Source of the DNA: an uncultured Croceitalea sp.
Lineage (GTDB): Bacteria; Bacteroidota; Bacteroidia; Flavobacteriales; Flavobacteriaceae
Length of the DNA: 64,000 nucleotides
Direction of reading: 5' to 3'
NCBI GenBank assembly: GCA_947495075.1
Contig: CANLXH010000002.1
Location: forward strand, 124,001-188,000
Both the position numbers and the translations under genes were made by a program. Below the pieces are notes generated by a model that was given only the letters and a program-made list of their open reading frames with translations, was not told the origin of the DNA and did not search any database. Of the stretch, positions 14,877 to 64,000 are shown in pieces; position 1 is the first letter of the stretch; each line of letters starts with the position of its first letter.

Positions 14877-14903
14877 TAAAGCCTTCATTTAGAAGGTTTT
14901 TTG
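14877..14903 (+). terminator. terminator after M56 gene
   Basis: Stem AAGCCTTC / GAAGGTTT (one G-U pair) with an ATTTA loop followed by T residues, about 28 bases after the stop codon of the M56 gene. Confidence 0.8.
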
Positions 14904-14962
14904 TGTAACAAAACCATAATCCTTGCGTTCTAATAATCTATCAAACCAAAACGAACACTATC

Positions 14963-16063
14963 ATGTTACAACGATTCTTTATCTTCTGTTCTGGAGCTGA
15001 CACAGATATTCTTGAAACTTGTTCCAACGGCGAACGCAACAAATACGCAGGTATAGGAGCCACTGTTTTTTTTACTGCAGTAATGGCCTTTATAGCCAGT
15101 GGTTATGCGCTTTATACTGTTTTCGATAATATTTACACCTCTATTTTCTTTGGCCTTATATGGGGTTTGCTCATCTTTAATTTAGACAGATATATAGTTT
15201 CCACCATTAAAAAAAGGGATAGTTTTAAAAGTGAACTGCTCCAAGCTGCTCCAAGGATTATCCTCGCTATTATTATTGCTATAGTCATCTCTAAACCTTT
15301 GGAAATGAAAATTTTTGAAAAGGAAATCAACCAAGTTTTACTCGAAGAAAAAAACGCAATGACCCTTGAGAATAAAGAGCAGTTGGCATTGCAGTATACA
15401 CCAACTATCGAAAGTTTAAATCAGGATATTACCAACTTAAAAAATGAAGTAGCTCAAAAAGAGGCAGAAACCAATGCACTTTACGACACTTACATTGCAG
15501 AAGCAGAGGGTACTGCTGGAACAAAATTATTAGGCAAAGGTCCTGTCTATGCAGAAAAACGAGAGAAACATGATGCTTACTTGGTAGAACTCCAGCAGTT
15601 AAAACAGACCAATGGTGAAAAGATAGCCGTTATTGAAAATCAAATAGCCACACTTAATTCAGATTACGATGCAGCAGTCACTACTTCTCAACCAGTAATA
15701 GATGGTTTTGACGGTCTTATGGCACGTATTAATGCTTTAAATAAATTACCATGGTTGCCTTCTTTCTTTATATTCCTATTATTCCTTGCTATTGAAACAG
15801 CTCCAATTATTGCTAAACTTTTAGCTCCAAAAGGCGAATACGATTACAAATTTGAAGAACAAGAAAGTGTTGTGGCCACATGGGTGACTCAAAAAGTAGC
15901 ACAACGTAAATTATTGATGTCTACAGATGCGACAATGAACCAAGAAATTTATGAGGATATTAAATCCGAAGAAGAACTATATCGTTACAAAAAGGAAAAA
16001 GCAGAAGAATTAATTCGATTACAGGCTAACTCTTTTCACAATACTCAGGTAAAAGGTTTGTAG
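14963..16063 (+). CDS. DUF4407 membrane protein
   Basis: DUF4407-type protein of 366 aa. It begins with the typical MLQRFFIFCSGADTDIL segment, then three hydrophobic helices at about 30-50, 57-77 and 93-112. A long charged coiled coil runs from about 115 to 240, and a fourth membrane helix lies near 262-282. The C-terminal tail is cytoplasmic and charged. No enzymatic motif is visible and the function of the family is unknown. It stands alone between a terminator and a convergent gene whose stop is ten bases away. Confidence 0.9.
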   Translation: MLQRFFIFCSGADTDILETCSNGERNKYAGIGATVFFTAVMAFIASGYALYTVFDNIYTSIFFGLIWGLLIFNLDRYIVSTIKKRDSFKSELLQAAPRIILAIIIAIVISKPLEMKIFEKEINQVLLEEKNAMTLENKEQLALQYTPTIESLNQDITNLKNEVAQKEAETNALYDTYIAEAEGTAGTKLLGKGPVYAEKREKHDAYLVELQQLKQTNGEKIAVIENQIATLNSDYDAAVTTSQPVIDGFDGLMARINALNKLPWLPSFFIFLLFLAIETAPIIAKLLAPKGEYDYKFEEQESVVATWVTQKVAQRKLLMSTDATMNQEIYEDIKSEEELYRYKKEKAEELIRLQANSFHNTQVKGL

Positions 16064-47548: not shown

Positions 47549-50500
47549 ATGAAGCTTAAAATACTAGTCTTTATTAGTCTATTAACCTATTGCTTAGCGC
47601 TTGGACAGCAAACTCCAGATGGGTTTATGTTTAGTGACGGAGCTGAACAACCAATTATAGTACCGCAATCACCAGAAGCGGGAACTCTTGGTAGGTACGG
47701 AAACATTCCCATTACTTCATCAACAGGTCAAATGAGTTACCAAGTGCCACTACATGTGATTAATGTTGATGGTCAAAACTGGCCAATAAGCCTAAACTAT
47801 AATTATGGAGGATTAATACTTGAAGGTAAACCATCATTAGTTGGGCTAGGCTGGAGTTTAGGAGGAGAAGCTGGCGTAACTCGAGAAGTCAGAGGGTTGC
47901 CAGATGAATCAGAATATGGTTATTACAGTACAATACCAGCGAAAGATGGCTCTGGTAGAACCGTAAAAAACCTAATTGATGAATATTTAAGTTTGGAAAA
48001 TGATGGAAATATTAATACTAAGGGATGGGATACGTGGAACATTTTAACACTCGAAAATTTTACTAATGGGATATATGATGCTGAAGTAGATAAATACACC
48101 GTAAACGTTGGAGGTTTAAATTTTTCCTTTAAACTTTCAAACTATGTTTATGACCAAGACGGTAACGTAATTTCGGCTGAGCCTTATTTTTTGTCAAAAC
48201 ATGCAAACAAAGTGGCTATAGAATGGGGAAATAGTGATAATGACTCTCCTGATAATTCTTTTATTAGATCATTCACCATAACTGATACTAATGGTATTGT
48301 CTACAAGTTTGAAGATATAGAAAAATCTGTACCGCAGGGAAGGAATGCTGAATTTCAAAGCAGGCCAATAACAGCATGGAAAATTACTGAAATAACATAT
48401 TTGAACAATCAAAAAATAGCATTCCAATATAACACTAATATTATTGATGATTATAACTATCGTTATTCAGGTTCTGCCCAAAAGATAAATATTGGAGGAA
48501 TATCTCCTGGTGGAAATGGCTATCTGGTAGGACCTTATGACCCTGCTACACAGGTTTATACAAATCCTCGCTATACAGAAGATATAACTTACGGTCAAAT
48601 TGAAAGAAAAATCTTGAAAAGGATAAATTTTCAAGAAGGTTATATTGATTTTATTTATTCTTTAAATAATGAATCAAGAATTTTATATAACGAAATAGGG
48701 TTGTACAATTTTGATTCGCAACTTATCAAGCGTTTTGAATTATCACAATCTGGAGCAAGGGATTATTTAGACAACATAACTATAAATAATGAGCAATCAT
48801 ACCAGTTTGAATATTATGATGAAATAGCCATACCACCTTTCATCCAAAATATAACAGATTTACAGCTAGCAAGAAAGCAGGATGATTGGAAATTCTATAA
48901 CGGGGCAAACAATGATTTTTCTCTTAATATACCAAACAGCCCGGCTACTGGAGTAAATAAAGAACCTAGTTTACTTCATTCTCGTTTAGGGGCTCTAAAA
49001 AGAATTATATATCCTACCAAGGGAAGCACGTATTTGTATTATCAGCAGAATGAAATACAAACTGAATTTATAGCTGATTCTCAATATTATGAATCTTTAC
49101 CTTATTCTACAACTTTTAAATTTTTGTTTGACCCTTCAAAGCATGATGCTGAAGGTAATACATTAGAGATTATTAAAGAATTTACATTTACCGAACCAAC
49201 AGTAGCTATAATTAATTCTTCTATAACAGGGGAACGTTGTGATAATCACATTCAACTGTCTATGTATAGAAAGGATGGCTTGTATAATTATCCTGTGACT
49301 TTTGAAGGAGAAACTATTCCTCCATTTCCAGGTGCAAATGATTTTTATTATGATGTTGCGCCATACCTAAGAGATAAAATTCTGGAATACGGATTTCCAT
49401 ATTCAATTCCTCCCATGTATCCTCAATATGCTGAAGAGTATGGCCCAGATGATGGTCCTTGTGGATATAATAGTATTCTGCATAACAGCTCAAATAAGAT
49501 ATTAATTATGCCTGGAACCTATGTTTTTAAAGGTTTTAGTGCGCAACCAGCATTAACTACAGCAGTTGGAGAGATTAAGCTTGATATTTTTGGCGAATTA
49601 AATGCGCCTTTACCTGAAAGCGTTAACAAAAAGGTTGGTGGAATTCGGTTAGATTACATGAAGGATTGTCCGGATAGTTCTGGGGGAAATTGTATAATAA
49701 CAGATTATGATTATAATGATGAAACGGGTTATTCTACCGGAGTTTTATATGTGAATCCTCAAATAAAAACAGTGCATCAATATGGTTATCTTTTAGATAA
49801 TACTACAACTATTATAGATATAGTAACGTATTTAGCGGAGCCTTATACAGTATCAAATCCTGGGATAGGAACTCCTGTTTTTTATCAGCAAATCAAAAAA
49901 ATTAATAAAGATTTTTCAAGTACTAGTGAAAATAAAATTGGTTTCACACAAACAACTTATTCTACACCTTTCGAAAATATTTCAGATTTATATCCAAGAA
50001 GACCTACAGGAGTAGATTTGGATAAATCCATGCCAATGGAAGTGAAAGTTTTTGAAAATGGGGTAGAGAATTATATTTCAAGAAAAGAATCTCTATATAC
50101 ACCAATTAGAAAGTTACTTGATTTTAATACACAGCAAGACAAAAACAACGATCATCCTCAGAGCTTAAAAGTGTTTTTAAAACAGAATAGGTATGTTGAT
50201 TTTGATGCGACAAATTTTTCTAATTACCCTCAACACGCTATAGGTTCTGAGGCGGATATTGCTATAAAACAATTACATGGTGTGTTACCCTATAGAGAAC
50301 TAGACATTTGGGATCGTTTATCCTCAACAACTAACAAATTGGATAGTATTTCTACAACTATGTTCTACAAATACAATGGTAACCAAAAGGTTATAGAAGA
50401 AAGAACAATTGACAGTAGAAATAACGAAACAATAAAAACAATAAAATACGCCAATGACTTCCCGGAGTTAAGTGATATGGAAGTACGAAATCAGTTGGGA

Positions 50501-53008
50501 AGTTCAATAGAATCTGAGACCAGTTACAACGGCATCGTTTTAGGACGTTCTAAAACAGATTTTACATTGGTTGCCAACGGATACAAACCATCTAAGACAT
50601 ATGAAGCCAAAGGCGATGGTTTATTAGAGGCAAAAATGAAAATTAACTATGATAATACCGGAAAAGTAATTCAGGTAGACCAGCTTTTAGACTCTCCTAA
50701 TCGTTATTTAGGTAATACTCAAGAAAAAGTATTAAAGAGTACATCTTATCTATGGGGTTACAATAATTCATATCCAGTAGTTAAAGCTGAGAATACTACT
50801 CTTTCTCAGTTAACATCCGCAGGAGCTAATCTTTCTAACTTAAGAAGCTCTTCGGTTTCATTAGATGTAAAAAAGGATGAATTATTGGCATTAAGAACCT
50901 CTTTACCTAATACATATATCACAGGTTATGCATATAACCCACTTATAGGCATTACTAATATGATAGATTCCAGAGGTTATAGTACATCCTATGGATATGA
51001 TAATTTAAACCGTTTGATAAGTGTAAAAGATGAGAATCAAAAAATGCTACAAGAATATCAATACGCATTTAGATCAGGAAATTATAGCAACCCAGATGAT
51101 GTGGGTCAATATCCAGATCTAGGTGGTTCAATTTTAGGATTTGATAGCGTCGTTTATAATACTTCTGCTAATTATACGGTTACTCCAAGTGGAGGATCAG
51201 GAGATTTTGGATATATATGGAGTCTTAATGGTAATTTCTTGGCGAGTAGCACAACTTCTTTAGACATTCTTTTTAATAGTGGTAGTAGTGCTACTATAGC
51301 TGTTGACATAATAGATAATGTAACTGGCTTAAGCACAACGCTTACAAAAACTATTACCATCTCTTCTAATTTAGAAGCTATCCAATTGAGTGCAAACCCA
51401 AATCCATCTTATGCAGGAGAAATAGTAACATTTAGCGCTTCTGAAGTTACAGGAGGTTCTAGTAATTATTCTTATGAGTGGTTTGTTAATGACAATATTC
51501 AAACATTTTCAGGAGCAACTGGTTTTCAAACTTCTTTTGCCTCTGCTGCAAGCTATGTTGTAAAGCTTGTAGCTACAGATAATGAAACCTCAAGTACAAT
51601 TGAAGGTATAGTGCCCATTCAAATATTTGATGAATTAACTACCCCTTCTTTAACCACTACTTTAACTAATGGTATTGTAGGACAGAACTTTAGGTTTACT
51701 CCAAGTAATGTTTCTGGTGGTGCAGAAACCACAATTCAGTGGTTTATAAATAATGTGCCACAAGGGTTTAACCAAAATGCCTCATTTACAACTTCGTTTG
51801 CCAATCCAGGTGATTATGAAGTTAGGTTCCGTATTACGGATACAACCTTTGGAGAGTTTAAAGAAGCAGCAGTTAATGTGAGGGTATTTAATAATTTAAA
51901 TATTACTGCTATTACAGCGAACCTAGAGCATATATTGGTCGGTTCTAGTGTAATCTTTAGCCCTCCTACTAGTGTTTTTGGAGGAAGTGAGAACTTAAGG
52001 CACGAATGGTTAGTAGATAATAGTCTACAATTAATATCATCAGGAAGTTTCACCTACAACCAGTTTAATACCGCGAAAGATTACACGGTAACCTATAGAG
52101 TTACAGATGAAATCCTTAATATAAGCAAGGAATCAAGTGTGGTAGTAAGTGCTTACAATCCTTTTAACACCCCAATCATTTCTCCATCTACATCAACTTT
52201 AAAACTCAATGATTTTGAAAGTTTTGTAGCTACTAATCCCGGAGGTGGATCTGGCTCGCGAATATATAGTTGGTACATTAAGTTTAATTCGGGTGGTTTT
52301 ACTCAAATACCTAATCAAAATACAAATTTCCTAAACTACTCTGGTTTTGATACGGCAGGTACTTACACTATTAAATTTAGGATTACTGATACAAAAATAA
52401 GTTCTCATTTTAGTGAGGTATCAGCAATTGTGAATGTATACCCAGCAGTTCAAGGTATAATAACGACACCATCCCCTATAACGCTTAACAGTAACGCAAA
52501 TTTTGATATTGATGTTACTGGAGGAAGTGGGCAGTTTACCTATGATTGGTCATACAGGGGGTATTCATCAACTTCAAAGTCTTTTAATCTACTTTTAGGT
52601 TATCAGTATTATGGCTCTTATTATGCAAATTGTGTTATAACAGATATTGTTACAGGAGAAACAACATCTGCATCTAAGGTTATAACAGTGAATGATGCGC
52701 CTAACTTAACTGCAAAACAAAAAGTTATACAGGTTTTTAACAATAACGATATCGAATACAATGCAAAAATTGGAATTAATAACCTTAATGGATCAGGAGA
52801 TTATAATTACCAATGGACTGTTGATGGGCAATCACAAGGTTCTTTTGAAGATGTAAATATCTATTTAACCTGCAGTGATACAGCTGATACGGTTAGATGT
52901 GTTATTACCGATAATGTTACTGGAAATGAAGTTACAGTAACCAAAATCTACTCTTTTAATGGTAACTGTGGCGGTGGAGACCCTAAGGATAATGAGAACC
53001 CTCAATAA
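47549..53008 (+). CDS. giant SpvB/RHS-like protein with PKD-type repeats
   Basis: 1819-aa secreted protein. Signal peptide about 1-20 (ALGQQ). From about 35 to 1150 it resembles SpvB/TcaC-like and RHS-type beta-rich shells; typical segments are SYQVPLHVINVDGQNWPISL, GLGWSLGGEAGVTRE and, near 1140, the YD-repeat-like TSYGYDNLNRLISVKDENQK. From about 1200 to the end are seven Ig/PKD-like units with W/F-x-N/D cores. It ends in a short Gly/Asp/Asn-rich tail (GGGDPKDNENPQ), with no RHS core and no toxin-like domain. It sits 14 bases before the true RHS gene; a role as carrier or partner is inferred. Confidence 0.84.
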   Translation: MKLKILVFISLLTYCLALGQQTPDGFMFSDGAEQPIIVPQSPEAGTLGRYGNIPITSSTGQMSYQVPLHVINVDGQNWPISLNYNYGGLILEGKPSLVGLGWSLGGEAGVTREVRGLPDESEYGYYSTIPAKDGSGRTVKNLIDEYLSLENDGNINTKGWDTWNILTLENFTNGIYDAEVDKYTVNVGGLNFSFKLSNYVYDQDGNVISAEPYFLSKHANKVAIEWGNSDNDSPDNSFIRSFTITDTNGIVYKFEDIEKSVPQGRNAEFQSRPITAWKITEITYLNNQKIAFQYNTNIIDDYNYRYSGSAQKINIGGISPGGNGYLVGPYDPATQVYTNPRYTEDITYGQIERKILKRINFQEGYIDFIYSLNNESRILYNEIGLYNFDSQLIKRFELSQSGARDYLDNITINNEQSYQFEYYDEIAIPPFIQNITDLQLARKQDDWKFYNGANNDFSLNIPNSPATGVNKEPSLLHSRLGALKRIIYPTKGSTYLYYQQNEIQTEFIADSQYYESLPYSTTFKFLFDPSKHDAEGNTLEIIKEFTFTEPTVAIINSSITGERCDNHIQLSMYRKDGLYNYPVTFEGETIPPFPGANDFYYDVAPYLRDKILEYGFPYSIPPMYPQYAEEYGPDDGPCGYNSILHNSSNKILIMPGTYVFKGFSAQPALTTAVGEIKLDIFGELNAPLPESVNKKVGGIRLDYMKDCPDSSGGNCIITDYDYNDETGYSTGVLYVNPQIKTVHQYGYLLDNTTTIIDIVTYLAEPYTVSNPGIGTPVFYQQIKKINKDFSSTSENKIGFTQTTYSTPFENISDLYPRRPTGVDLDKSMPMEVKVFENGVENYISRKESLYTPIRKLLDFNTQQDKNNDHPQSLKVFLKQNRYVDFDATNFSNYPQHAIGSEADIAIKQLHGVLPYRELDIWDRLSSTTNKLDSISTTMFYKYNGNQKVIEERTIDSRNNETIKTIKYANDFPELSDMEVRNQLGSSIESETSYNGIVLGRSKTDFTLVANGYKPSKTYEAKGDGLLEAKMKINYDNTGKVIQVDQLLDSPNRYLGNTQEKVLKSTSYLWGYNNSYPVVKAENTTLSQLTSAGANLSNLRSSSVSLDVKKDELLALRTSLPNTYITGYAYNPLIGITNMIDSRGYSTSYGYDNLNRLISVKDENQKMLQEYQYAFRSGNYSNPDDVGQYPDLGGSILGFDSVVYNTSANYTVTPSGGSGDFGYIWSLNGNFLASSTTSLDILFNSGSSATIAVDIIDNVTGLSTTLTKTITISSNLEAIQLSANPNPSYAGEIVTFSASEVTGGSSNYSYEWFVNDNIQTFSGATGFQTSFASAASYVVKLVATDNETSSTIEGIVPIQIFDELTTPSLTTTLTNGIVGQNFRFTPSNVSGGAETTIQWFINNVPQGFNQNASFTTSFANPGDYEVRFRITDTTFGEFKEAAVNVRVFNNLNITAITANLEHILVGSSVIFSPPTSVFGGSENLRHEWLVDNSLQLISSGSFTYNQFNTAKDYTVTYRVTDEILNISKESSVVVSAYNPFNTPIISPSTSTLKLNDFESFVATNPGGGSGSRIYSWYIKFNSGGFTQIPNQNTNFLNYSGFDTAGTYTIKFRITDTKISSHFSEVSAIVNVYPAVQGIITTPSPITLNSNANFDIDVTGGSGQFTYDWSYRGYSSTSKSFNLLLGYQYYGSYYANCVITDIVTGETTSASKVITVNDAPNLTAKQKVIQVFNNNDIEYNAKIGINNLNGSGDYNYQWTVDGQSQGSFEDVNIYLTCSDTADTVRCVITDNVTGNEVTVTKIYSFNGNCGGGDPKDNENPQ

Positions 53009-53022
53009 TTAAAAAAGAAAAA

Positions 53023-56000
53023 ATGAGATTATATACTACAATACAAATTTTAGTTTTAATGTTAGTTTTGGTTTCTGTTAATGCTCAACAAGCGTATCAG
53101 GCACCAGTTCCTAGCGATGTTAACTATGTACTGTCCCGAACATACCAAGTGCCAAAGAATAGCAATGCTGAGATTTCTCTAAACAACGATGTTATAGAAG
53201 CTATCCAGTATTTTGATGGTCTTGGCCGCGAGCAACAGACCATTAATATTGGGCAATCACCTCTTGGTGCCGATATGGCAACCCCTTTTCAGTATGATGA
53301 ATATGGGCGTATGGTTAGGGAGTGGCTCCCATTTCCTGCAGCAAATGATGGGGTTAAAGGCAATTACCAAACAGGTTCACAATTGAATACACAACAGTTC
53401 TACCAAAACAAATATGCAAACGATTTCCAAGAATTGGAAATAACGGCCGTTAATCCCTATTCAGAAAAAATGCTAGAGTCTTCGCCGCTAAGTAGGGTAA
53501 ACAAACAAGCTGCTCCAGGTAAAGATTGGGGTATTAATGGTGAAGATGATATGGACCATACCATTGGTTTTATATATGGGACCAATACCCATGACCCTGA
53601 AAATACAAATAACGTTGATAACGATAATGTAAGGTTGTTTACAGTGAGTTTACCGCTAAGTAATAGCGAAAACCCATCGCTTTCTAATGATGGTTACTAT
53701 GAAGCCAAGGCACTCTCTAAAACCATAACAAAGGATGAGAACCATGACAGCGGTAAGGACCATACCACTGAAGAATTTACGGATAAGAATGGCAGAGTGG
53801 TACTTAAGCGTACCTATAACAATAGTGAAGAACACGATACGTATTACGTGTATGACGATTTTGGAAACCTTACTTATGTAGTGCCACCTTTGGTAGACAC
53901 TACAGACGGTATCTCCACAGGCGAGCTTGCAGAACTGTGTTACCAATACGTGTATGATTACCGCAATCGTCTGGTAGAAAAGAAGCTGCCTGGAAAAGGA
54001 TGGGAATATATTGTGTATAATAATTTAAACCAGCCGGTAATGACTCAGGATGCTAACCAACGTAGTAGCAATGAGTGGCTCTTTACCAAATATGATATAT
54101 ATGGCCGTGTGGCTTATACAGGTAAGGCAACCGTAACAACCAATAGACCTAATCTACAAGATACCGTAACGGAACTTCCTGATAGCTATGAGCTATGGAC
54201 AAGCAGAATAGGAACAGCTGCTACTGTTAGTAACACCGATGACAAAGCCATTAATTATAATATAAATGGCTATCCAAACGCTTCGGATATTACAGAACTA
54301 CTTACTGTAAACTATTATGATGATTACAATATAGCAAGTGCGGATTTAGGAGGCGCACCAACTACGGTAACCCTCTTGGATTCACCTAATGGAGCAACCA
54401 ACGACCTTAGAACCAAGGGTATGCCAACGGTAAGCTTGGTACGTGTATTAACTACAGATAGCTGGATAAGTACTGTTACGCTTTATGATGCTAAAGCACG
54501 TCCGGTGTATACTCGTAGTAATAACCCTTATCTACAGACCGTAGATGTGATGGAGAGCCAATTGGATTTTATAGGCAGACCAAAAAAAATAAAGAGTAGC
54601 CATACAAGAAACGGCAATACTATAGTTACGATGGATAATTTTACTTATGACCATATAGGGCGTTTGTTAAGCCAAACACAATGTATTGGGGATGAAAACC
54701 TTGGTGATAGTTGCGAAGCCAGTGGCAGTACCACTGCTAACATTAGCCTTTCTAATGAAGCGGTAACTACCAACCAAGTGGCTTCCAATAGTATTATAAT
54801 AAGCCCAACAACAACAATTAGCGGTACGGTTATCCTAAGCATAGCCAGTGGTAGTGGCGGTGAAGAGGAACTTATTGTCTTTAACCAGTATGATGAGTTA
54901 GGGCAACTAGAATCTAAAAAAGTGGGAGGTACGCCAAACAGTAGTTTTAGTAGTACGCAAGGATTACAAACAGTTGATTATGGATACAACGTACGAGGAT
55001 GGTTGAAGAATATAAATGATGTAATCAACCTTAGCGGAGACCTTTTTGCTTTTGGTATAAACTACAACGAAGGTACCAATGCGCTTTATAACGGTAACAT
55101 TTCCTCAACGCAATGGAGAACTAACAATAATGACCAAAATTTTAAAAGCTACAATTACCAATACGATGCCTTAAACCGAATCACTGATGCTGTAGATGAT
55201 ATGGGTGGTAACTATGCGGTAAGCAATATTAGCTATGATAAAAACGGTAATATAAAAACCCTAAACAGACAAGGACCAACTGTTGACTTACCTACACTGG
55301 GACAAGCTAGTGACTTTGGAAACATGGACCAGTTATCTTATGAATACTTTGATGGTACCAACCAATTAAAGAGCGTAAGCGATGGTAGTAATGCCAACTA
55401 TGGTTTTAAAGATGGCAATACTTCTGGAGATGATTATGTCTATGATGACAACGGCAACATGCTGTCTGATGCCAACAAGGGGGTACAAGGAAACGCTGCA
55501 TCAGAAGATGGCATCGAATACAACCATTTAAACCTACCTACCTTAGTTCGTGTAAATAGTAATACACAATCAGGAACAATTATGTATATTTATGATGCTA
55601 CTGGGGTAAAACTTCAGAAGAACGTTCTTACTAATGGGAATACCACGGCAACGGACTATGCAGGTAACTATATTTATGAAAAACCTCAAGGAGGTACAGC
55701 AACATTACAGTTCTTTAGTACCCCTGAAGGGTATGTAGAACCAAAGAATGCGAACAATCTAAATCAAGGCTACAATTACATTTATCAGCACAAAGACCAC
55801 TTGGGTAATGTAAGATTAAGTTATACTGATAATGACAACGATGGTCAAATCACAGCCGCTACTGAAATACTTCTCGAAAACAACTACTATCCATTTGGGC
55901 TAAAGCATAAAGGGTATAACGGAAGCGTAAGTCCATTGGGGAATTCCGCGGCGCAGAAGTGGAAGTATAATGATAAGGAGATTGATGAAGATTTAGGTTT

Positions 56001-56835
56001 GAACTTATATCATTATGGATTTAGAATGTATGATGCTGCTATTGGAAGATTCCCAAGTATTGACCCAATCTCAGATCAATTTCCACATGTTTCAACATAT
56101 AATTATGCTGAAAATAGACCTATTGATGGAATTGACTTATGGGGATTACAATATGTTAATGCCAACGAAGCAAGATTATTTGTAAATCGTGAAGGTACTA
56201 TAGAGCTTAACTTTCAAAATATGACAAGATTTACTCGTAATACTTTTAATTCTGTCAATAGCAATCCTGATAATTGGAAACCTGGAGAAATAGGTGCAAG
56301 TTTTTTGAACACATCTGTTGCAGACTTCAAATTCGAATCTGTACGGGATACAAAAGCATTGAAGCTTGGAAAACCTTCAGACTGGACAATCCGAATACAA
56401 AAACCAATAGCAAGAAGTACAAACCAAGAAGACAGAAGATTCAAGGATAGGTATATTGGAACTGGAACAGTAAATGGAAGTAAATCAGTTAAGTCGGCTA
56501 GAGCACTTCTAATGGTTGAAGGAGTAAAATTAAGTTATGATATAGTTAGTTTAATATTTGAAAAAATTGATTCTAATATTGTAGAAGATCAATTTAAATC
56601 TTTATTATATTCCGCCGTAGATTTGGAAAATGCTTTGGATAATGGGTTAATACCAGAGAGTTATCAAAACGAACAGGATCTTTCTTTGATGCTAAATGGA
56701 ATATTTAAAGGTGAAGGAGGAGATGTTAATAATAAAAGAGACCAATCTATTGTAAATTATGGCATATTGATTTATCAGTTATACAATAATCAGCAAAATA
56801 AAACTTCCAATAAACAAGGAACAAATGAAAATTAG
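53023..56835 (+). CDS. DUF6443-RHS repeat protein with variable C-terminus
   Basis: 1270-aa exported protein. Signal peptide 1-21 (SVNAQ), then the DUF6443 region with IEAIQYFDGLGREQQTINIG, many YD repeats (for instance YVYDDFGNLTYV, YDIYGRVAYTG) and the RHS-associated core with DHLGNVRLSYTD, NNYYPFGLKHKGYN, YGFRMYDAAIGRFPSIDP and NYAENRPIDGIDLWGLQ. A short insert near residues 565-610 resembles a 3-coathanger-stack-type beta unit. After residue about 1043 the sequence changes to a 228-residue domain that I cannot assign; it is AT-richer by eye. This is the classical layout of a polymorphic toxin, with the effector released from the shell. Confidence 0.88.
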   Translation: MRLYTTIQILVLMLVLVSVNAQQAYQAPVPSDVNYVLSRTYQVPKNSNAEISLNNDVIEAIQYFDGLGREQQTINIGQSPLGADMATPFQYDEYGRMVREWLPFPAANDGVKGNYQTGSQLNTQQFYQNKYANDFQELEITAVNPYSEKMLESSPLSRVNKQAAPGKDWGINGEDDMDHTIGFIYGTNTHDPENTNNVDNDNVRLFTVSLPLSNSENPSLSNDGYYEAKALSKTITKDENHDSGKDHTTEEFTDKNGRVVLKRTYNNSEEHDTYYVYDDFGNLTYVVPPLVDTTDGISTGELAELCYQYVYDYRNRLVEKKLPGKGWEYIVYNNLNQPVMTQDANQRSSNEWLFTKYDIYGRVAYTGKATVTTNRPNLQDTVTELPDSYELWTSRIGTAATVSNTDDKAINYNINGYPNASDITELLTVNYYDDYNIASADLGGAPTTVTLLDSPNGATNDLRTKGMPTVSLVRVLTTDSWISTVTLYDAKARPVYTRSNNPYLQTVDVMESQLDFIGRPKKIKSSHTRNGNTIVTMDNFTYDHIGRLLSQTQCIGDENLGDSCEASGSTTANISLSNEAVTTNQVASNSIIISPTTTISGTVILSIASGSGGEEELIVFNQYDELGQLESKKVGGTPNSSFSSTQGLQTVDYGYNVRGWLKNINDVINLSGDLFAFGINYNEGTNALYNGNISSTQWRTNNNDQNFKSYNYQYDALNRITDAVDDMGGNYAVSNISYDKNGNIKTLNRQGPTVDLPTLGQASDFGNMDQLSYEYFDGTNQLKSVSDGSNANYGFKDGNTSGDDYVYDDNGNMLSDANKGVQGNAASEDGIEYNHLNLPTLVRVNSNTQSGTIMYIYDATGVKLQKNVLTNGNTTATDYAGNYIYEKPQGGTATLQFFSTPEGYVEPKNANNLNQGYNYIYQHKDHLGNVRLSYTDNDNDGQITAATEILLENNYYPFGLKHKGYNGSVSPLGNSAAQKWKYNDKEIDEDLGLNLYHYGFRMYDAAIGRFPSIDPISDQFPHVSTYNYAENRPIDGIDLWGLQYVNANEARLFVNREGTIELNFQNMTRFTRNTFNSVNSNPDNWKPGEIGASFLNTSVADFKFESVRDTKALKLGKPSDWTIRIQKPIARSTNQEDRRFKDRYIGTGTVNGSKSVKSARALLMVEGVKLSYDIVSLIFEKIDSNIVEDQFKSLLYSAVDLENALDNGLIPESYQNEQDLSLMLNGIFKGEGGDVNNKRDQSIVNYGILIYQLYNNQQNKTSNKQGTNEN

Positions 56836-57772: not shown

Positions 57773-60700
57773 GGAATATTACTAATCTGCGAGAACTAAG
57801 ATTAGATAATAATGACCTGCAAGGTCAAATACCTCCTAGTCTAAATCAACTAAGTGATTTAGTAATTCTAAACTTATCCTTTAATCAGCTATCTGGATCC
57901 GTACCAAATTTTATTTCTATTGCAAATTTAAATACATTGGGTCTTAGGGATAATGCATTAGTTTTTGGAGATTTTGAAAATGAACACCTAACATATTTGT
58001 CCAATATCAATTCTTATTGGTATTCCCCCCAAGCCGATATCAATGAAGAAGAAACCCATGCTGTTTGTGTAGAAGAAAGTTTAGTTCTTATCACTGATGT
58101 GGGAGGCTCTGCAAACCATTACCAATGGTTTAAAGATGGCACTCCAATTGCCGGGGCGCCAGACAGTGCTACCTACCTAATCCAAAACGCTACCTTGACA
58201 GATGCCGGTATATACCATTGTGAGGTAACTAGTGATATTGTTAGCGGGCTTACCCTTACCCGCAGACCAATAGATGTTACCATTACAACCTTACTGGAAG
58301 ACACTCATAATACGGTTACCAGCCGCTCTTACGATATTACAGGAAGTCAGATAGGTGCTGGCAAACAATTTTTTGATGGCCTAGGGCTATTAGAACAAAC
58401 CCAAACTTGGAACATAAGAACGGATGAAACATGGGCTTCTCAAGTACTACGTGATGTCTTTGATAGGACAGCCTTACAAACACTCTCTGCGCCAATTACA
58501 ACGGGCAGTGAGTTTACTTACAAAGAAGATTTTGTTATGCGAACGACCAGTGTTGCATACGCCCTCAGTGATTATCAAAATCCTTTAAACCCTTCATCGG
58601 TAGTTAGCCCAAGTAATACCTTAGGTTGGTACTATAGTGAAAACAATACCCAAAACCCATACCAAGATCAAACCGAATATCCTTTTTCAAGAACTATATA
58701 CAGCATCTTAAATCCAGGTAGGGTACTCACCGCTATTGGAGGTAATAAAATAAACCGTAATGGTACGGAAGAATGGTCAAAGACCTATAGCTTTACCATG
58801 CCTAGTGGAGGTGCACTTGCACATAGTTCTGCTTTTGGTGATACTGCTTATAACAATAATGGAAACAAACGTGTAATTAAAACCGTCACACGTGATGTAC
58901 ATGGTATAGAGACCGTAGTCTTTAGTGATAGTGATGGTCTTGTATTGGGAGCTGCTCGAAGCGGAAATGAAGAAAACCCAACACTACCGCAATACCAAAT
59001 TTCTTTAGAGGTAGGGTCACAGGGTTATGTTGACATCCATATTCCCCAAGGCTGCACAGGAATTACCCTCAGTGGAGGAGGGCCATTAGATGGTGCATCG
59101 TATCAAATATATGATTTAGTAACGGAAAATACAGTGACATCTCCAGCAACATTACCGGCAGGGTTTTACCGTGTAGCCTTTACTGTTAAAGAGCCAGAAA
59201 ACCCTTATGTGGTGAGTCACCAGGTTAATTACTATGATTATAGCCTTAATGAATATGATACTGCGCAGCGTTTGGTGGCTTCCTACCAACCTTTGGGGGC
59301 TATCAAAGTAGATAAACCAGTAACAACCTATGAGTATAATACACTAGGGCAATTAATTAAAACCAGTAGCCCAGATGAAGGTATTGCAGAGTTCAAATAC
59401 CGTGAAGATGGGCAAATACGTTACTCACGGAATAGCAAGCAATTGGCTACAGGTGAATTTTCATACACCAACTACGATCCTTTTGGCAGGCCTGTAGAAA
59501 GTGGCGTAGTCGTAAGTACAGCTTTTACTACTATAGACCCGGATGATAATGGCACTAATACACCTGCTGGCACCAAAAAAGAGCAGCAGTTTACTACATA
59601 CGATATTGCCGATAATGAGGCTATGGCTGCAGCTTTAGACAATAGGGCAAATGACTATCCTGCACAGAGTTTTGTGGCAGGTAATGTAGCTCATACCGCT
59701 AATGATATAAGCCAAACCTGGTATGCTTATGACATCTACGGTAGGGTAAAATGGTTGGTGCAAGATATTAATGGTCTAGGTGTTAAGACTATAGATTACA
59801 ACTACCATCCCGTAAATGGGCTAGTAGAAGAAGTTGTGTATCAGAAAGCCCAAGGCGATCAGTTTATACATCGGTATAGCTATGATGCGGCCTATCAATT
59901 AACCTTGGTAGAAACAGCAACCAATTCCGGTTCATTTACAGAACAAGCACGCTATAGCTATTATAACGATGGCAGCCTAAAACGTACCGAACTGGCAGAA
60001 GGAGCTCAGGGGATGGACTATGTATATAACCTTGCAGGACAGCTTAAATCTATTAACCATCCAACATTAAACCCTACTAATGACCCAGGAGGTGATACCA
60101 ACGATATGTTTGGTATGGCACTAGACTATCATAACAACGATTATTTGCGCACCAATACCCCAACACCAGTAACTACCTACCCTGGAGGTATAGACCAGTT
60201 AAATGGGAATATAAAAAGTATACGTTGGAGCAATGCCAACCCTAATACTGTAGAAAGCCAATATGCCTATACCTATGACCGTAATAATTGGTTAACTGGG
60301 GCAGATTTTGATCCTGGGAACCAAAATACTGGAGGAGGACTGCAACAAAACCTACCGCTTACTGGTACTATTACTAATAATCAAGCAGCTACAAATAGCA
60401 TAACGGTTAGCCCAGAGGCTACCATTAGCGATGGTGTTACCCTAAGTATTAATCCTAATGGGGGTAGTCCAGGCGCAGATGATTATGATGTTAGCAATAT
60501 TAGCTATGATGCTAATGGAAACATACAAAGTTTAGTGCGTAAAAAGGGAAGCCAAGATGGTAATAATGCTATGGATAATCTAGGTTATGTCTATAAGACG
60601 GATAAACCCAACCAACTGCTTAGGGTAAACGATGGTGATGGCGATGTAGCCAATGCAGACGATATAGGCAACCATACAGAAGTAGAAAACTACGTATACA

Positions 60701-62085
60701 ATAGCATAGGCCAACTTATAGAAAATAAGGAAGAAAATTTGGAGTATATTTACAATACAAGTGGTTTGGTAACAGAAGTGAAGAAAAATAGTAATAGTGC
60801 AGTAAAGTTTTATTATAATGACCGTAACCATAGGGTTCGTAAAGAAACTTTTGATGACCAAAACAACCCTCTTTCTAACACTTATTATGTACGTGATGTA
60901 GCAGGGCAGGTACTAGCTATTTATAGTGATGCTACGGGTAATGTGGTTCTGGCAGAACAACCTGTATATGGTAGCGGTCGTATTGGGGTAGCCTATAACG
61001 GTACCAACAATGCAAAGCAATATGTGTATGAACTTACCGATCATTTAGGTAATGTGCGTGCCACCTTTGCTAAGAATGGAAGTACAGCGCAAGGAGAGGG
61101 CTATACGGACTATTATCCTTTCGGTATGCCGATGCCCGGAAGACAAATGACCGGGGCGGAGCAGTATAGGTACGGCTATCAGGGGCAGGAAAAAGACCCC
61201 GAGACTGGAAAAGAGGCCTTTGAGCTAAGGTTATGGGATTCTAGGATTGGGAGGTGGTTGACGACTGACCCATATGGACAGTACAACTCCCCGTACCTCG
61301 GAATGGGGAATAACCCAATGAATGGTATCGACCCTGATGGAGGATTTTGGGAAGAATTTTTCAACTGGATTGGAGGTAATGGCTGGAACAGTAATGCAGC
61401 TTTAGAGTATCAAGCAAATGGTGGTACCTTAGGTGAATGGACTGGTAATAAATTTTCAGGTTATAGAAATGCTGCGACAACTATTGATGGAGAAACTTAT
61501 GGTACTACTTTTAATGCAGTAAATGATTTTATTAATTATGATGCATTCGGTCTTGATGGTAAAATAGCATTAGGTTTTGCAAGGGCAATAGGAGGGGATG
61601 TTATGGGTGGTCACATAGGTGGTGGTGGTGGTGGATTAAACTTATCTGTTACTTTTTTGGGTGGAAAATATGGGAATTACTGGTATGATTACTATGGATG
61701 GGAGGCAGGACAGAATTACGGTGCTGGTATTGGTTTTTCAGGTGATTATGCTCTTGAAGGTTTTATTTCTGTTTATATAGGGAATAATTCGAATCCAGAC
61801 CCTTCATCTTTTGAAGGACCATTTGGAGCATTTGAGTTAAATGGTTCAGCTGAAGCTGGTGTTGGAGGAGGTCTACAAGGTAGTGTAGCATATGGGGGTG
61901 GTTGGATTACAGTTGGTCTAGGAGCGAACGTGGGTGCTGGTGCTAAGATATCAGTTTCTGGTGAAGTAAGATATGGTGAAACATATCTTATTACCCCAAT
62001 TAAAGAGACAAATCAAAGGACAATTAAAGATTATTTAATAAATAAACTTGTTCATGTCAGTCCAGTCATACCAAGCTTTCAATAA
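57763..62085 (+). CDS. 5'-truncated LRR-Ig-RHS repeat protein
   Basis: Second RHS protein, open from a stop at 57682-57684 to 62085, with homology from about 57763. It begins inside leucine-rich repeats (NELGNITNLRELRLDNNDLQ and SLNQLSDLVILNLSFNQLSG), followed by an Ig domain (YQWFKDGTPIAGAP), YD repeats, a 3-coathanger-like insert, and the RHS core (YGYQGQEKDPETGKEAFELR, DSRIGRWLTTDPYGQ). No signal peptide or ATG precedes; the first start-like codon is TTG at 57937. The C-terminus after IDPDG is about 247 aa, Gly-rich and amphipathic, perhaps membrane-active. Probably a silent cassette or decayed gene rather than a secreted effector. Confidence 0.85.
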   Translation, partial: NELGNITNLRELRLDNNDLQGQIPPSLNQLSDLVILNLSFNQLSGSVPNFISIANLNTLGLRDNALVFGDFENEHLTYLSNINSYWYSPQADINEEETHAVCVEESLVLITDVGGSANHYQWFKDGTPIAGAPDSATYLIQNATLTDAGIYHCEVTSDIVSGLTLTRRPIDVTITTLLEDTHNTVTSRSYDITGSQIGAGKQFFDGLGLLEQTQTWNIRTDETWASQVLRDVFDRTALQTLSAPITTGSEFTYKEDFVMRTTSVAYALSDYQNPLNPSSVVSPSNTLGWYYSENNTQNPYQDQTEYPFSRTIYSILNPGRVLTAIGGNKINRNGTEEWSKTYSFTMPSGGALAHSSAFGDTAYNNNGNKRVIKTVTRDVHGIETVVFSDSDGLVLGAARSGNEENPTLPQYQISLEVGSQGYVDIHIPQGCTGITLSGGGPLDGASYQIYDLVTENTVTSPATLPAGFYRVAFTVKEPENPYVVSHQVNYYDYSLNEYDTAQRLVASYQPLGAIKVDKPVTTYEYNTLGQLIKTSSPDEGIAEFKYREDGQIRYSRNSKQLATGEFSYTNYDPFGRPVESGVVVSTAFTTIDPDDNGTNTPAGTKKEQQFTTYDIADNEAMAAALDNRANDYPAQSFVAGNVAHTANDISQTWYAYDIYGRVKWLVQDINGLGVKTIDYNYHPVNGLVEEVVYQKAQGDQFIHRYSYDAAYQLTLVETATNSGSFTEQARYSYYNDGSLKRTELAEGAQGMDYVYNLAGQLKSINHPTLNPTNDPGGDTNDMFGMALDYHNNDYLRTNTPTPVTTYPGGIDQLNGNIKSIRWSNANPNTVESQYAYTYDRNNWLTGADFDPGNQNTGGGLQQNLPLTGTITNNQAATNSITVSPEATISDGVTLSINPNGGSPGADDYDVSNISYDANGNIQSLVRKKGSQDGNNAMDNLGYVYKTDKPNQLLRVNDGDGDVANADDIGNHTEVENYVYNSIGQLIENKEENLEYIYNTSGLVTEVKKNSNSAVKFYYNDRNHRVRKETFDDQNNPLSNTYYVRDVAGQVLAIYSDATGNVVLAEQPVYGSGRIGVAYNGTNNAKQYVYELTDHLGNVRATFAKNGSTAQGEGYTDYYPFGMPMPGRQMTGAEQYRYGYQGQEKDPETGKEAFELRLWDSRIGRWLTTDPYGQYNSPYLGMGNNPMNGIDPDGGFWEEFFNWIGGNGWNSNAALEYQANGGTLGEWTGNKFSGYRNAATTIDGETYGTTFNAVNDFINYDAFGLDGKIALGFARAIGGDVMGGHIGGGGGGLNLSVTFLGGKYGNYWYDYYGWEAGQNYGAGIGFSGDYALEGFISVYIGNNSNPDPSSFEGPFGAFELNGSAEAGVGGGLQGSVAYGGGWITVGLGANVGAGAKISVSGEVRYGETYLITPIKETNQRTIKDYLINKLVHVSPVIPSFQ

Positions 62086-62096
62086 AAATATGAATT

Positions 62097-62525
62097 ATGA
62101 AGCCCAAATTAATACTTGCAATACTCATAATACCTGTAATCCTGGGTTTATGCTTGTTTATAGTAATAGGTTTTATCAAACAGAGTGATAAGAAATATTT
62201 AGAAAAGAAGAATTTTCAACTTATAGGTGTTGTTGTAAATAAGAATTATATTGAAAGTGGTGTGGGTTCTGTTGTACTTAATTTGACCAAGTCTAATTAT
62301 ATGGAATATAATCCAGACAATGATAATCGAAGACGGTATTTTTGTAAGATAAGCAATGATCGAGCATATATTATAATTGAGGGGATTAATACTATAAGTA
62401 TTGGAGATACTATTAAAATAGATGAAACGCGTATTAGCTTATATAGAGACAAGGAATTAGTGAAATCATCAAATATATTTATTCCGATACCTTTCCCCTT
62501 AAGCTCTAAAATATTTGATAAATAA
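62097..62525 (+). CDS. small membrane protein, candidate immunity gene
   Basis: 142-aa protein with one N-terminal membrane helix (about 5-27) and a soluble beta-rich part. It begins 11 bases after the truncated RHS gene and is AT-rich. No family recognised. Position suggests an immunity partner for the Gly-rich C-terminus, which is inference only. The RAYT/REP array begins immediately after its stop. Confidence 0.65.
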   Translation: MKPKLILAILIIPVILGLCLFIVIGFIKQSDKKYLEKKNFQLIGVVVNKNYIESGVGSVVLNLTKSNYMEYNPDNDNRRRYFCKISNDRAYIIIEGINTISIGDTIKIDETRISLYRDKELVKSSNIFIPIPFPLSSKIFDK

Positions 62526-62587
62526 TTCATCCCCAGCTGCCGCAAGAGTGAGCGCTACCGTTAATTTGTAATTAGTGGCGGTCATGA

Positions 62588-62610
62588 GCTTGCCAGCCGC
62601 AGGCAGGTAA
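62588..62610. repeat. degenerate REP-like hairpin
   Basis: TGCCAGCCGCAGGCA at 62591-62605 forms a short TGCC/GGCA stem, with GC content far above its surroundings. It lies after the candidate immunity gene. Confidence 0.45.
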
Positions 62611-62638
62611 GATAAACAGTTATAAAATTTAGAGAAAG

Positions 62639-62664
62639 ACCACGGCGAGTGCGGTGGTTTTTTT
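62639..62664 (+). terminator. terminator-like hairpin, unit A
   Basis: ACCAC / GTGGT stem followed by seven T residues. Two related hairpins occur at 63002 and 63377. Confidence 0.6.
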
Positions 62665-62690
62665 GTTTATGCAATAGCCTTTAGCTTCCC

Positions 62691-62720
62691 CCGCTACCGG
62701 ACGATTCCAATCTTGTGGTA
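62691..62720. repeat. REP hairpin, unit A
   Basis: CCGCTACCGGACGATT and AATCTTGTGGTA pair imperfectly. The TACC/GGTA ends match the hairpin at 63251-63275. Confidence 0.6.
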
Positions 62721-62782
62721 AATAAGTAATTTTCAACTATATGTTTATACTATGATTTTAAGAAATAGTATAGTTTTACTAA

Positions 62783-62800
62783 ATGAGCAGAAATTATAAG
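62783..62800 (+). pseudogene. RAYT start fragment, unit A
   Basis: ATG plus codons for SRNYK, identical in protein to the start of the open RAYT at 63714. It is cut at 62801 by a GC-rich REP sequence. Confidence 0.72.
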
Positions 62801-62860
62801 CCCCCCGCTGCCGCGCGAATCCCTTCGCCCCGCTAGCGCTCGTCTGTGACGGGTGCCGAA
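62801..62860. repeat. REP-type sequences, unit A scar
   Basis: CCCCGCTGCCGCGCGAATCC followed by CTTCGC repeats the left arm and loop of the 63160 REP, then changes to CCCCGCTAGCGCTCGTCTG, a second REP type related to the half element at 57454. Confidence 0.65.
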
Positions 62861-62919
62861 CCAGTTAAGAATATATAGAACCACTACGAGAGCTATTGTT
62901 TTTTGTATTTTTAAATTTG

Positions 62920-62949
62920 ATGAGCAGAAAATACAAGTTTCATAATCCC
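62920..62949 (+). pseudogene. RAYT start fragment, unit B
   Basis: ATG with codons for SRKYKFHNP, the conserved RAYT N-terminus, then directly a REP hairpin. No XRE tail is kept in this unit. Confidence 0.75.
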
Positions 62950-62977
62950 CGCTCCGCAGTAGTTGTACTGCTGCGGC
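62950..62977. repeat. REP hairpin, unit B
   Basis: Stem CCGCAGTAG / CTGCTGCGG (one G-U) with a TTGTA loop at 62954-62976. Confidence 0.7.
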
Positions 62978-63001
62978 ACAACAATAAAATTTAGAAGAAA
63001 G

Positions 63002-63027
63002 CCACGGTAATAGCTGTGGTTTTTTGT
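63002..63027 (+). terminator. terminator-like hairpin, unit B/C
   Basis: CCAC / GTGG stem then six T. It lies between the unit B RAYT scar and the XRE tail stop. Confidence 0.6.
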
Positions 63028-63029
63028 TT

Positions 63030-63155
63030 TTAGAGCGCAGCGACGTTTTTGTTGAAGAAGTCTTTGAACTTCTTTTTGGTCAACATGGTATCAATGATTT
63101 TAAGTATCGTTGACCTATCTTCCTCGTCGAGTTCGTTAATGAGCTTAAACTGTTC
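63030..63155 (-). pseudogene. XRE-type regulator C-terminal fragment (unit C)
   Basis: Encodes the last 42 residues of an XRE-family regulator (FKLINELDEEDRSTILKIID, then KKKFKDFFNKNVAAL). The remainder toward the N-terminus is replaced by the GC-rich REP at 63157-63192. A longer open frame crosses the REP but is chimeric. Confidence 0.72.
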
Positions 63156-63159
63156 GCCC

Positions 63160-63243
63160 CCCCCGCTGCCGCGCGAATCCCTTCGCGTGGCATAGTCAAA
63201 CAAATTGTTTAGCTTTAACTTATGAGTAGGAATTATAAATTTC
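63160..63243 (+). repeat. 84-bp perfect direct repeat, copy 1 (REP plus RAYT start)
   Basis: Identical to 63652-63735 (offset 492). Contains the REP hairpin TGCCGCGCGAA-TCCC-TTCGCGTGGCA at 63167-63192, a 29-base leader and ATG plus the first six RAYT codons after it. Confidence 0.92.
63222..63243 (+). pseudogene. RAYT start fragment, unit C
   Basis: ATG and codons for SRNYKF, then the sequence changes at 63244 to a REP hairpin at 63251-63275. Confidence 0.75.
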
Positions 63244-63246
63244 CCC

Positions 63247-63275
63247 ACGCTGCCGCACGATTGTATCGTGTGGTA
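63247..63275. repeat. REP hairpin, unit C scar
   Basis: TGCCGCACGAT (63251-63261) pairs with ATCGTGTGGTA (63265-63275) around TGT; two mismatched or wobble positions. Confidence 0.7.
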
Positions 63276-63376
63276 AATACTAAAAAAAGAACTCCCAAGC
63301 TGTGGGCAAGCAAAAATGACCGCTAGTGCAATCATCACGCTCGTACCGTTTATGAGTAAGAGATAAAAAACCTAAG

Positions 63377-63407
63377 AACCACAGCTGTAAAAGTTGTGGT
63401 TTTTTGT
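63377..63407 (+). terminator. terminator-like hairpin, unit C/D
   Basis: ACCACAGCT / AGTTGTGGT stem followed by six T residues, between the unit C scar and the unit D XRE tail. Confidence 0.65.
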
Positions 63408-63409
63408 TT

Positions 63410-63653
63410 TTACAGTACAGCTAAATTTTTATCAAAAAAATCTTTAAATTTTTTATTGGTAAGCATCTTATCAATGATTTTAAGGACTGTATTTTTATCT
63501 TCCTCGTCCAATTGGTTAATTAGTTTAAAGCGTTCATCTTCGGTTTTATCTTCCAAAACTACAGCTTTAGGAATATCATCTTCAAGGTTAATAATTTGGT
63601 CAACAGTTAAATTAAAGAGCTGTGCCATTTTATGAAGCTCAATAACGGTTACC
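63410..63653 (-). pseudogene. XRE-type regulator C-terminal fragment (unit D)
   Basis: About 80 residues of an XRE-family regulator: VTVIELHKMAQLFNLTVDQI, a linker, then FKLINQLDEEDKNTVLKIID and FKDFFDKNLAVL. The helix-turn-helix part is missing; the frame runs on into the REP, giving an artificial N-terminus. It matches the unit C tail at about two thirds of positions. The intact ancestor would have been divergent from the RAYT. Confidence 0.75.
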
Positions 63654-63735
63654 CCCGCTGCCGCGCGAATCCCTTCGCGTGGCATAGTCAAACAAATTGT
63701 TTAGCTTTAACTTATGAGTAGGAATTATAAATTTC
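63652..63735 (+). repeat. 84-bp perfect direct repeat, copy 2
   Basis: Identical to 63160-63243. REP hairpin at 63659-63684; it forms the 5' region and first seven codons of the open RAYT. Confidence 0.92.
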
Positions 63736-64000
63736 ACAATCCTGAAGGGCTTTATTTTGTAAGTTTTGCAGTAGTAGAATGGTTAGATGTATTTACCCGT
63801 AATACATATAAAGATATACTGTTAGATAGCCTTTCTTTTTGTCAAAAGACAAAAGGAATGGAAATTGTTGCTTGGTGTATTATGACGAATCATGTTCACT
63901 TGATTTTTAGGTGTGTGGGTGTTGAAGAACCTCAACAGGTTTTAGGTGATTTTAAAAGATATACCAGTAATAAAATTGTAAAGGCAATTAAAGAAAATCC
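63714..64000 (+). CDS. REP-associated tyrosine transposase (RAYT), 5' part
   Basis: Transposase of the IS200/IS605-like TnpA-REP group, 95 residues visible before the window edge. It begins MSRNYKFHNPEGLYFVSFAV and contains the HUH-type metal motif in WCIMTNHVHLIF, followed by LGDFKRYTSNKI. The catalytic tyrosine would lie further on and cannot be checked. RAYTs cut single-stranded REP hairpins. A REP hairpin sits 30 bases upstream of the start. Confidence 0.9.
   Translation, partial: MSRNYKFHNPEGLYFVSFAVVEWLDVFTRNTYKDILLDSLSFCQKTKGMEIVAWCIMTNHVHLIFRCVGVEEPQQVLGDFKRYTSNKIVKAIKEN

Follow-up and report, generated by a model that had tools for sequence, protein, structure and literature searches.

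REP-associated tyrosine transposases (RAYTs) have been described as single-copy, vertically inherited, domesticated transposases (PMC8049555), and how the repetitive extragenic palindromes (REPs) that accompany them move is poorly understood (PMC8266576). In E. coli and other bacteria, RAYTs cleave single-stranded REPs at a dinucleotide on the 5' or 3' side of the hairpin; HUH enzymes stay linked to the DNA by a 5'-phosphotyrosine (PMC8266576). Here we analyze an array of RAYT, XRE and REP pieces that forms the last 1.5 kb of a 64,000-nucleotide (nt) stretch from the 3.73-Mb genome of an uncultured Croceitalea sp. of the Flavobacteriaceae (hereafter the window; G000:C2:124001-188000, contig CANLXH010000002.1). 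Among the closest published systems is RAYT/TnpA-REP subclass 2.6 (= RAYT group 5; PMC6006769), with which this locus shares a Y1 HUH transposase, an NHVH motif, a YIHxNP motif in variant form, occurrence in Bacteroidota and inverted, non-canonical hairpins. Class 2, save subclass 2.3, is reported to have low copy numbers and low identity between copies (PMC6006769), whereas relatives of our genome carry two to three near-identical whole units that are bounded by REP edges and linked to Rhs loci.

Three further systems invite comparison. It is already known that REPs concentrate near the RAYT gene and that rayt pieces are captured between REPs, as they are here; the pieces reported by Nunvar 2010 (PMC2817692) are rayt 3' ends in bacterial interspersed mosaic elements (four cases), whereas ours are 5' ends, accompanied by fragments of XRE genes and, in relatives, of Rhs genes. 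Rhs tip displacement arrays (PMC2935791) and Vibrio effector-immunity displacement arrays (PMC5361080) likewise consist of series of truncated pieces that lie behind an active Rhs or effector gene, and they are read as successive cassette exchanges; in contrast to them, the junctions here lie at REP edges, a transposase unit is present, and no Rhs core fragment was found in the array among the matches listed. Homologous recombination with circles is the proposed route of Rhs tip exchange (PMC2935791). For the Vibrio effector arrays, homologous recombination alone is said to be insufficient, homology-facilitated illegitimate recombination is discussed and no evidence for integrase help is reported so far (PMC5361080).

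With a probability of roughly one half, we read the array as debris lying 3' of an Rhs toxin/immunity locus, left by repeated illegitimate joinings at REP edges in a locus visited by a mobile RAYT unit. What the sequences show is the identity of the parts, REP-edge junctions in several genera, the mobility of the complete unit in relatives and its linkage to Rhs genes. That several relatives repeat the pattern suggests that joining favors hairpin edges during the rearrangement of such toxin loci.

The array blocks sit 3' of an Rhs gene and a small open reading frame (ORF), and on the plus strand each opens at a hairpin or its remnant, with a C run as the outer edge. All parts below are on the plus strand except the antisense XRE tails and the inverted REPs; the terminators, leaders and shortest XRE tail were read by eye. 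A complete REP of family A (62530..62593; covariance model R2, 64.2 bits) comes first, followed by a terminator-like inverted repeat with a T run (62640..62667, within 62622-62668, which recurs at 62984-63029 with 83% identity) and the last six codons of an XRE gene (X0, 62668..62686, minus strand, recognized against the ends of the two longer tails). A degenerate REP of family B (62686..62727; model R1, 44.9 bits) then leads through a leader into six RAYT codons (MSRNYK, 62783..62800), which stop at the first 28 nt of another REP-B (62801..62828, identical to 63159-63186). The next block consists of a REP-A variant (62829..62869), whose inverted relative lies past the window end at C2:188339-188384, a decayed terminator and the 9-10 codons of a second RAYT start (MSRKYKFHNP in translation, 62920..62946); at its edge stands a third hairpin type (62947..62977; z -3.48), succeeded by a terminator and the roughly 41 codons of XRE tail X1 (63030..63157, minus strand; tblastn 78% to residues 81-121 of an intact XRE). 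A REP-B (63158..63199; 50.6 bits, z -5.85), a leader and seven RAYT codons (MSRNYKF, 63222..63243) make up the next piece, which abuts a further REP-B (63242..63282; 57.7 bits, z -3.51), a decayed REP-A (63293..63361; R2 24.5 bits), a terminator and the roughly 79 codons of XRE tail X2 (63410..63649, minus strand; by translation, and by tblastn, which matches it at 66% with residues 38-121 of an intact XRE, although the REP supplies the first of these residues). The series ends with the complete unit: a REP-B (63650..63691; 50 bits, z -5.15), a leader, a RAYT gene of 187 amino acids that fills 63714..64000 and extends to G000:C2:188277, and an inverted REP-B at C2:188269-188310.

A sequence-only reading of this stretch had described four decayed XRE-RAYT units with a REP hairpin at every deletion scar. 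The four RAYT starts that it placed at 62783, 62920, 63222 and 63714 are indeed present: the first three end after 6, 10 and 7 codons near 62800, 62946 and 63243, where a C run and a hairpin begin, and the fourth gene is complete. It was also right that two XRE tails are cut at hairpins, near 63157 and 63650 at REP-B copies, but it overlooked the third, six-codon tail (62668-62686). Hairpin edges do lie at the cuts, yet they belong to two families plus the third type at 62947 rather than to a single one, and they differ in quality: the hairpins at 62945, 63158, 63242 and 63650 fold well against shuffled sequences (z -3.5 to -5.9), the truncated copy at 62801 folds weakly (z -1.04), and the copies at 62687 and 63312 show no advantage over shuffled sequences (z -0.02 and -0.23). 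"Deletion scar" is an interpretation of these breakpoints rather than a description. Full genes did exist, since relatives contain complete RAYT units and intact XRE genes.

The repeated blocks show that the pattern is not a chance one: 63160-63243 and 63652-63735 are identical at 84 of 84 positions, and 63007-63155 and 63387-63535, which hold the XRE ends to the left of these blocks, match at 113 of 149 (76%). From this difference we infer that the piece reaching from the REP to RAYT codon 7 was copied or homogenized recently, and separately from the XRE pieces.

Beyond the window, fragment ends coincide with REP edges more often than the local density of REPs (those of both models) predicts. 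Eight of 17 XRE fragment ends lie within 6 nt of an outer REP edge, where 0.17 are expected, and none (0/17) lies at an inner edge; with the five ends set by eye omitted, the count is 4/12. For RAYT 5' fragments, the outer edge accounts for 4 of 24 ends (0.27 expected), or 2 of 21 outside the window. All eight XRE and four RAYT coincidences are thus on the outer side, and the recurrence of hairpins at breakpoints noted by the sequence-only reading stands. These counts bear on the view that an insertion-rich region is simply decaying neutrally, with REPs numerous, genes rotting and the edge coincidences incidental. REPs are locally dense and most RAYT fragments in relatives break elsewhere, as that view would have it, but the excess over expectation, its restriction to the outer side and its persistence without the by-eye XRE ends make it highly improbable in our judgment.

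Individual loci (numbered L; genomes numbered G) show the same kind of junction. A like layout was recognized by eye in a congener (L084), in Tenacibaculum (L146) and in Subsaximicrobium (L164); the series in L084, also read by eye, runs from an XRE cut by REP-A through a terminator, a REP, a terminator and a REP to a complete RAYT and an inverted REP. In L146, a REP lies 13 bp before the start codon of an intact XRE. XRE cut points differ between cases. Two Rhs cassette heads in G098 (L075:9128, 11053) share 535 nt at 93.5%, and their homology begins exactly at a REP-B edge; the left flank of one is an XRE tail and that of the other is another coding end. Simple insertion of a REP into XRE or RAYT was rejected as the cause of the cuts, as no N-terminal XRE part was found across a cut (tblastn, E up to 0.05); two XRE matches that lack the C-terminus (L095, L096) are other genes, far from these cuts.

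Partial copies of the RAYT unit are anchored at the same edge. Among the 20 non-self plus-strand matches of five query units, 18 begin within 7 nt of a REP edge and their right ends range from 27 to 920 nt, although many are little more than a REP and one stops at a contig end; one exception among the 20 is the 3' part of an internally deleted copy. A sixth query (G026), which starts 73 nt before its REP, gave nine non-self matches, six of which begin at the REP. Such a fixed left end would also result from one-ended copying: after a RAYT nick at the outer edge of a REP, a strand whose 5' end is fixed but whose 3' end varies would be copied and placed beside REPs already present, and the truncated units would never have been complete here. 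Three REP-B copies of identical sequence in the array begin at the same base and run for 27, 84 and 659 nt. In G017, unit base 1 is the start of seven non-self copies and base 3 that of an eighth; these copies end at 65-920, one of them at a contig end. The 76% likeness of the XRE stretches beside the identical 84-nt blocks, which speaks for recent and separate movement or homogenization of the REP block, fits as well. Gene conversion could homogenize 84 nt, though, erosion of complete copies by deletion up to the REP edge would give the same picture, and many of the copies are barely longer than a REP. One-ended transfer is known for IS91 and Helitron types; to our knowledge it is not known for Y1 transposases, which counts against it here. 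Overall, we regard one-ended copying as rather unlikely. Truncated copying fits the partial copies as well as deletion by RAYT or REP pairing does; deletion up to an edge and copying from an edge leave the same sequence, and the data do not separate them.

In relatives, the complete unit (5' REP, RAYT, inverted REP) behaves as an insertion sequence with derivatives resembling miniature inverted-repeat transposable elements (MITEs). Near-identical complete copies occur within five loci, at 97.8% over 920 nt in L040, 99.6% over 718 nt in L104 (three copies), 100% over 695 nt in L110, 97.0% over 709 nt in L112 and 96.3% over 731 nt in L092. In each of them, the C-run edge of the 5' REP and the G-run edge of the inverted 3' REP delimit the homology, and the flanks are unrelated, which is the pattern of IS200/IS605-like insertion sequences, near-identical complete copies at unrelated sites. 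The pairs in the RAYT-rich loci L124, L129, L158 and L161 were left out of this comparison. Our genome has one complete copy; by extension from relatives, the window's own unit would be an insertion sequence too. Read by eye for an empty site, the flanks of 17 complete units gave no clear single gene that a unit had interrupted. The copies in L104:6946-11503 (three within 5 kb) and L110:9913-12542 (two within 3 kb) are candidates for recently active elements.

Copies with an internal deletion but with both REPs retained are found three times in G026 (220-221 nt, 99.5-100% identical) and three times in L117 (210-212 nt, 94 and 97%). Like REPINs (PMC3116915), such MITE-like derivatives are non-autonomous, have two inverted REPs and are thought to be moved in trans; unlike REPINs, they keep 21-30 N-terminal or about 50 C-terminal RAYT codons, and the window's own pieces have no second REP. 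The three elements of about 221 nt in G026:C14 (L045, L046) combine two inverted REPs with 21 RAYT codons; by eye, one of them sits where the core and the tip of an Rhs gene meet, and a truncated Rhs core end directly adjoins another. Their mirror image is seen in Flavobacterium davisii, where two elements (L093:6840-7103 and 14882-15145) hold inverted REPs and only the last ~50 RAYT codons. Among 59 RAYT places, N-terminal pieces outnumber C-terminal ones by 19 to 9, an excess that proves little because the RAYT N-terminus is well conserved.

The complete RAYT of the window is a REP-associated transposase of the Y1_Tnp type (NF047646, 89.4 bits against a cut-off of 80; PF01797, 36.9 bits), with the HUH histidines H60 and H62 and the single tyrosine Y145 invariant in 14 aligned sequences. 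When set against the motif table for subclass 2.6/group 5 (PMC6006769), which gives NH[LIV]H, WQ and YIH[QN]NP, it has NHVH, but FWR in place of WQ and YIHKNP in place of YIH[QN]NP; several relatives' RAYTs carry WQ and YIHNNP. Its flanking REP-B hairpins are in inverted orientation (plus at 63650, minus at C2:188269-188310). A second Pfam match in the genome, at C1:1793371, was rejected as a further complete copy, as it covers 39 residues at 23.2 bits in an open frame of 40 amino acids.

The XRE and RAYT genes relate to Rhs loci in different ways: XRE accompanies them and RAYT visits them. A search with the XRE tail over 118 relatives yielded 12 places in 7 genomes, several of which sit in Rhs arrays with no RAYT match (L073, L075; XRE in L070-L077 without RAYT). 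An intact XRE in L059 faces, by eye, a primase-like gene and not a RAYT. We also inspected 20 further Rhs stretches, hand-picked from a set without the Rhs places beside RAYT and hence RAYT-poor by construction; XRE occurs in six of them (seven matches), each time behind the Rhs gene on the opposite strand, and RAYT in none (0/20), partly owing to the way the set was chosen. RAYT itself was found at 59 places in 28 of the 118 genomes, collapsing to 48 loci. At least 14 of these loci, spread over 10 genomes, have one of the 87 Rhs core places listed for RAYT-bearing genomes within 3 kb, against an expectation of at least 0.29, both values being lower bounds as the Rhs list is incomplete at its weak end. 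All 14 are on the same strand as the Rhs gene, and 13 are downstream of it. Only 11 of 80 named RAYT loci, taken with up to 10 kb of flank, hold a match to the Rhs core of the window, so most RAYT loci are not at Rhs genes. No paper on a RAYT-Rhs link was found in the open-access literature searched, and among the literature matches listed, none on orphan Rhs cassettes was by its title on Flavobacteriaceae.

A fixed XRE-RAYT gene pair was therefore rejected, given XRE at Rhs loci without RAYT (6 of the 20 stretches; L070-L077), and with it the notion of XRE-RAYT as the unit of the array. The plain model of the sequence-only reading, in which complete tandem XRE-RAYT units were shortened by REP-REP recombination or RAYT-driven excision, suffers accordingly. 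Junctions at REP edges and the intact XRE and RAYT genes of relatives are what it predicts, but besides the missing pair, L146 has two XREs of different type in one array, and REP-REP recombination would not pick arbitrary points inside XRE or RAYT. We consider this model very unlikely.

Under our preferred reading of illegitimate joinings at REP edges, a Bacteroidota-type RAYT unit (5' REP, leader, RAYT, inverted 3' REP) would have sat here more than once. The joining partners would usually be the outer, C-run edge of a REP and an arbitrary point in an XRE gene, a RAYT gene, another REP or an Rhs cassette, so that each joining would leave a block that begins at a REP edge and ends where the next REP begins. 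The joinings may reflect one-sided deletion or cassette replacement, homologous at one end and illegitimate at the other. A RAYT nick at the REP edge could make that edge a preferred partner: with the REP side protected by an outer-edge cut and the flank left exposed, loss or joining would affect one side, which is the pattern observed. An illegitimate junction would find a ready partner in a REP edge. A bolder extension, which we think unlikely, would have the Bacteroidota RAYT/REP pair take part in rebuilding Rhs loci, the nicked outer edge providing the point at which captured cassettes, or copies made in a one-ended, 5'-anchored manner, are joined without homology. Read in this way, the array would record successive toxin-cassette exchanges, one REP edge for each.

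Several observations weigh against the reading of joinings at REP edges. The XRE and RAYT breakpoints were entered by hand and partly set by eye (those of the window and L146, one of two in L164, and one each in L051 and L117). At the breaks of 20 of the 24 RAYT 5' fragments, the models report no REP; a hairpin was recognized by eye at three of these breaks (L042, L050 and 62946) and not at the others. For 9 of 17 XRE tails, including two in L073, no REP edge was detected at the end, and two more, in L162 and L164b, stop 18 and 32 nt from one. Neither REP model matches in 15 of the 20 further Rhs stretches, so that Rhs arrays can do without REPs. A sixth RAYT pair, in L169 (79%), is not bounded by REP edges, and G076:C31 shows a third type of RAYT/Rhs neighborhood, with a C-terminal fragment 1.5 kb upstream and another fragment 3.4 kb downstream. 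No strain pair showing the state before and after a joining was found, and the literature examined contained no report of cleavage by a subclass 2.6 RAYT.

The hairpins do not form a dispersed population in this genome. Mismatch pattern searches miss copies with another loop length, and covariance models were therefore used; R1 (REP-B) and R2 (REP-A) were each built from 14 copies, including REPs at the tested junctions, and run over the whole genome, with the best 150 of 516 (R1) and 150 of 679 (R2) first-look candidates scored, so that weak copies may be missed. Among these candidates, REP-B, the family flanking the RAYT, has six matches, all within C2:186686-188310 (1.6 kb), five at E<=2e-5 and one at E 4. 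REP-A matches three times in this locus, at C2:403832 and 404095 in a second Rhs locus and once at C2:368912 (E 0.003); five further matches have E above 0.5. A genome-wide REP family was thus rejected, with the matches among the scored candidates confined to few sites, and for this genome the idea that the array records the spread of REPs from their transposase gene fell with it. The many dispersed copies of canonical REPs were seen for neither family in the scored candidates, nor, by eye, was the canonical GT[AG]G at the 5' foot of the hairpin; on one strand a C run plus GCT precedes the stem instead, and on the opposite strand CTAT or TTTA does. The REP-A-like match G000:C2:368912-368959 is distant from the Rhs core places among the matches listed (four).

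Against the single-copy, vertically inherited RAYTs of PMC8049555 and the low-copy class 2 of PMC6006769, the copies in relatives resemble insertion sequences. Our results suggest that what is new is a RAYT group with such mobility, often at Rhs loci, and with REP edges as joining points. A RAYT group with a multi-copy, sharp-ended complete unit offers a tractable system for REP movement, and the co-directional RAYT-Rhs link is a candidate for the illegitimate side of toxin-cassette exchange.

The Rhs gene next to the array (57937..62085, plus strand; 1382 amino acids) has a variable C-terminal tip and carries the Rhs_assc_core domain at residues 1059-1135 (TIGR03696, 47.9 bits against a cut-off of 32.5; PF05593). 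The small ORF behind it (62097..62525, plus strand), for which family searches gave no match, is by its position the putative immunity gene of the tip. Rhs orphan-tip arrays carry truncated Rhs core fragments behind an intact gene; none was seen at C2:185344-188400 among the matches listed (four of five own-genome matches), and such fragments do occur in the relatives L073 and L075. At the second Rhs locus of the genome (L069/L078; G000:C2:402447-405581 within 394000-413000), which has no RAYT match, an XRE tail is present with REP-A on both sides and a tRNA-Asn gene just beyond. Within the window, the Rhs gene at 57937-62085 is the second of a tandem of two different Rhs genes, the first at 53023-56835, each followed by a small ORF in the immunity-gene position and both preceded by a larger ORF at 47549-53008.

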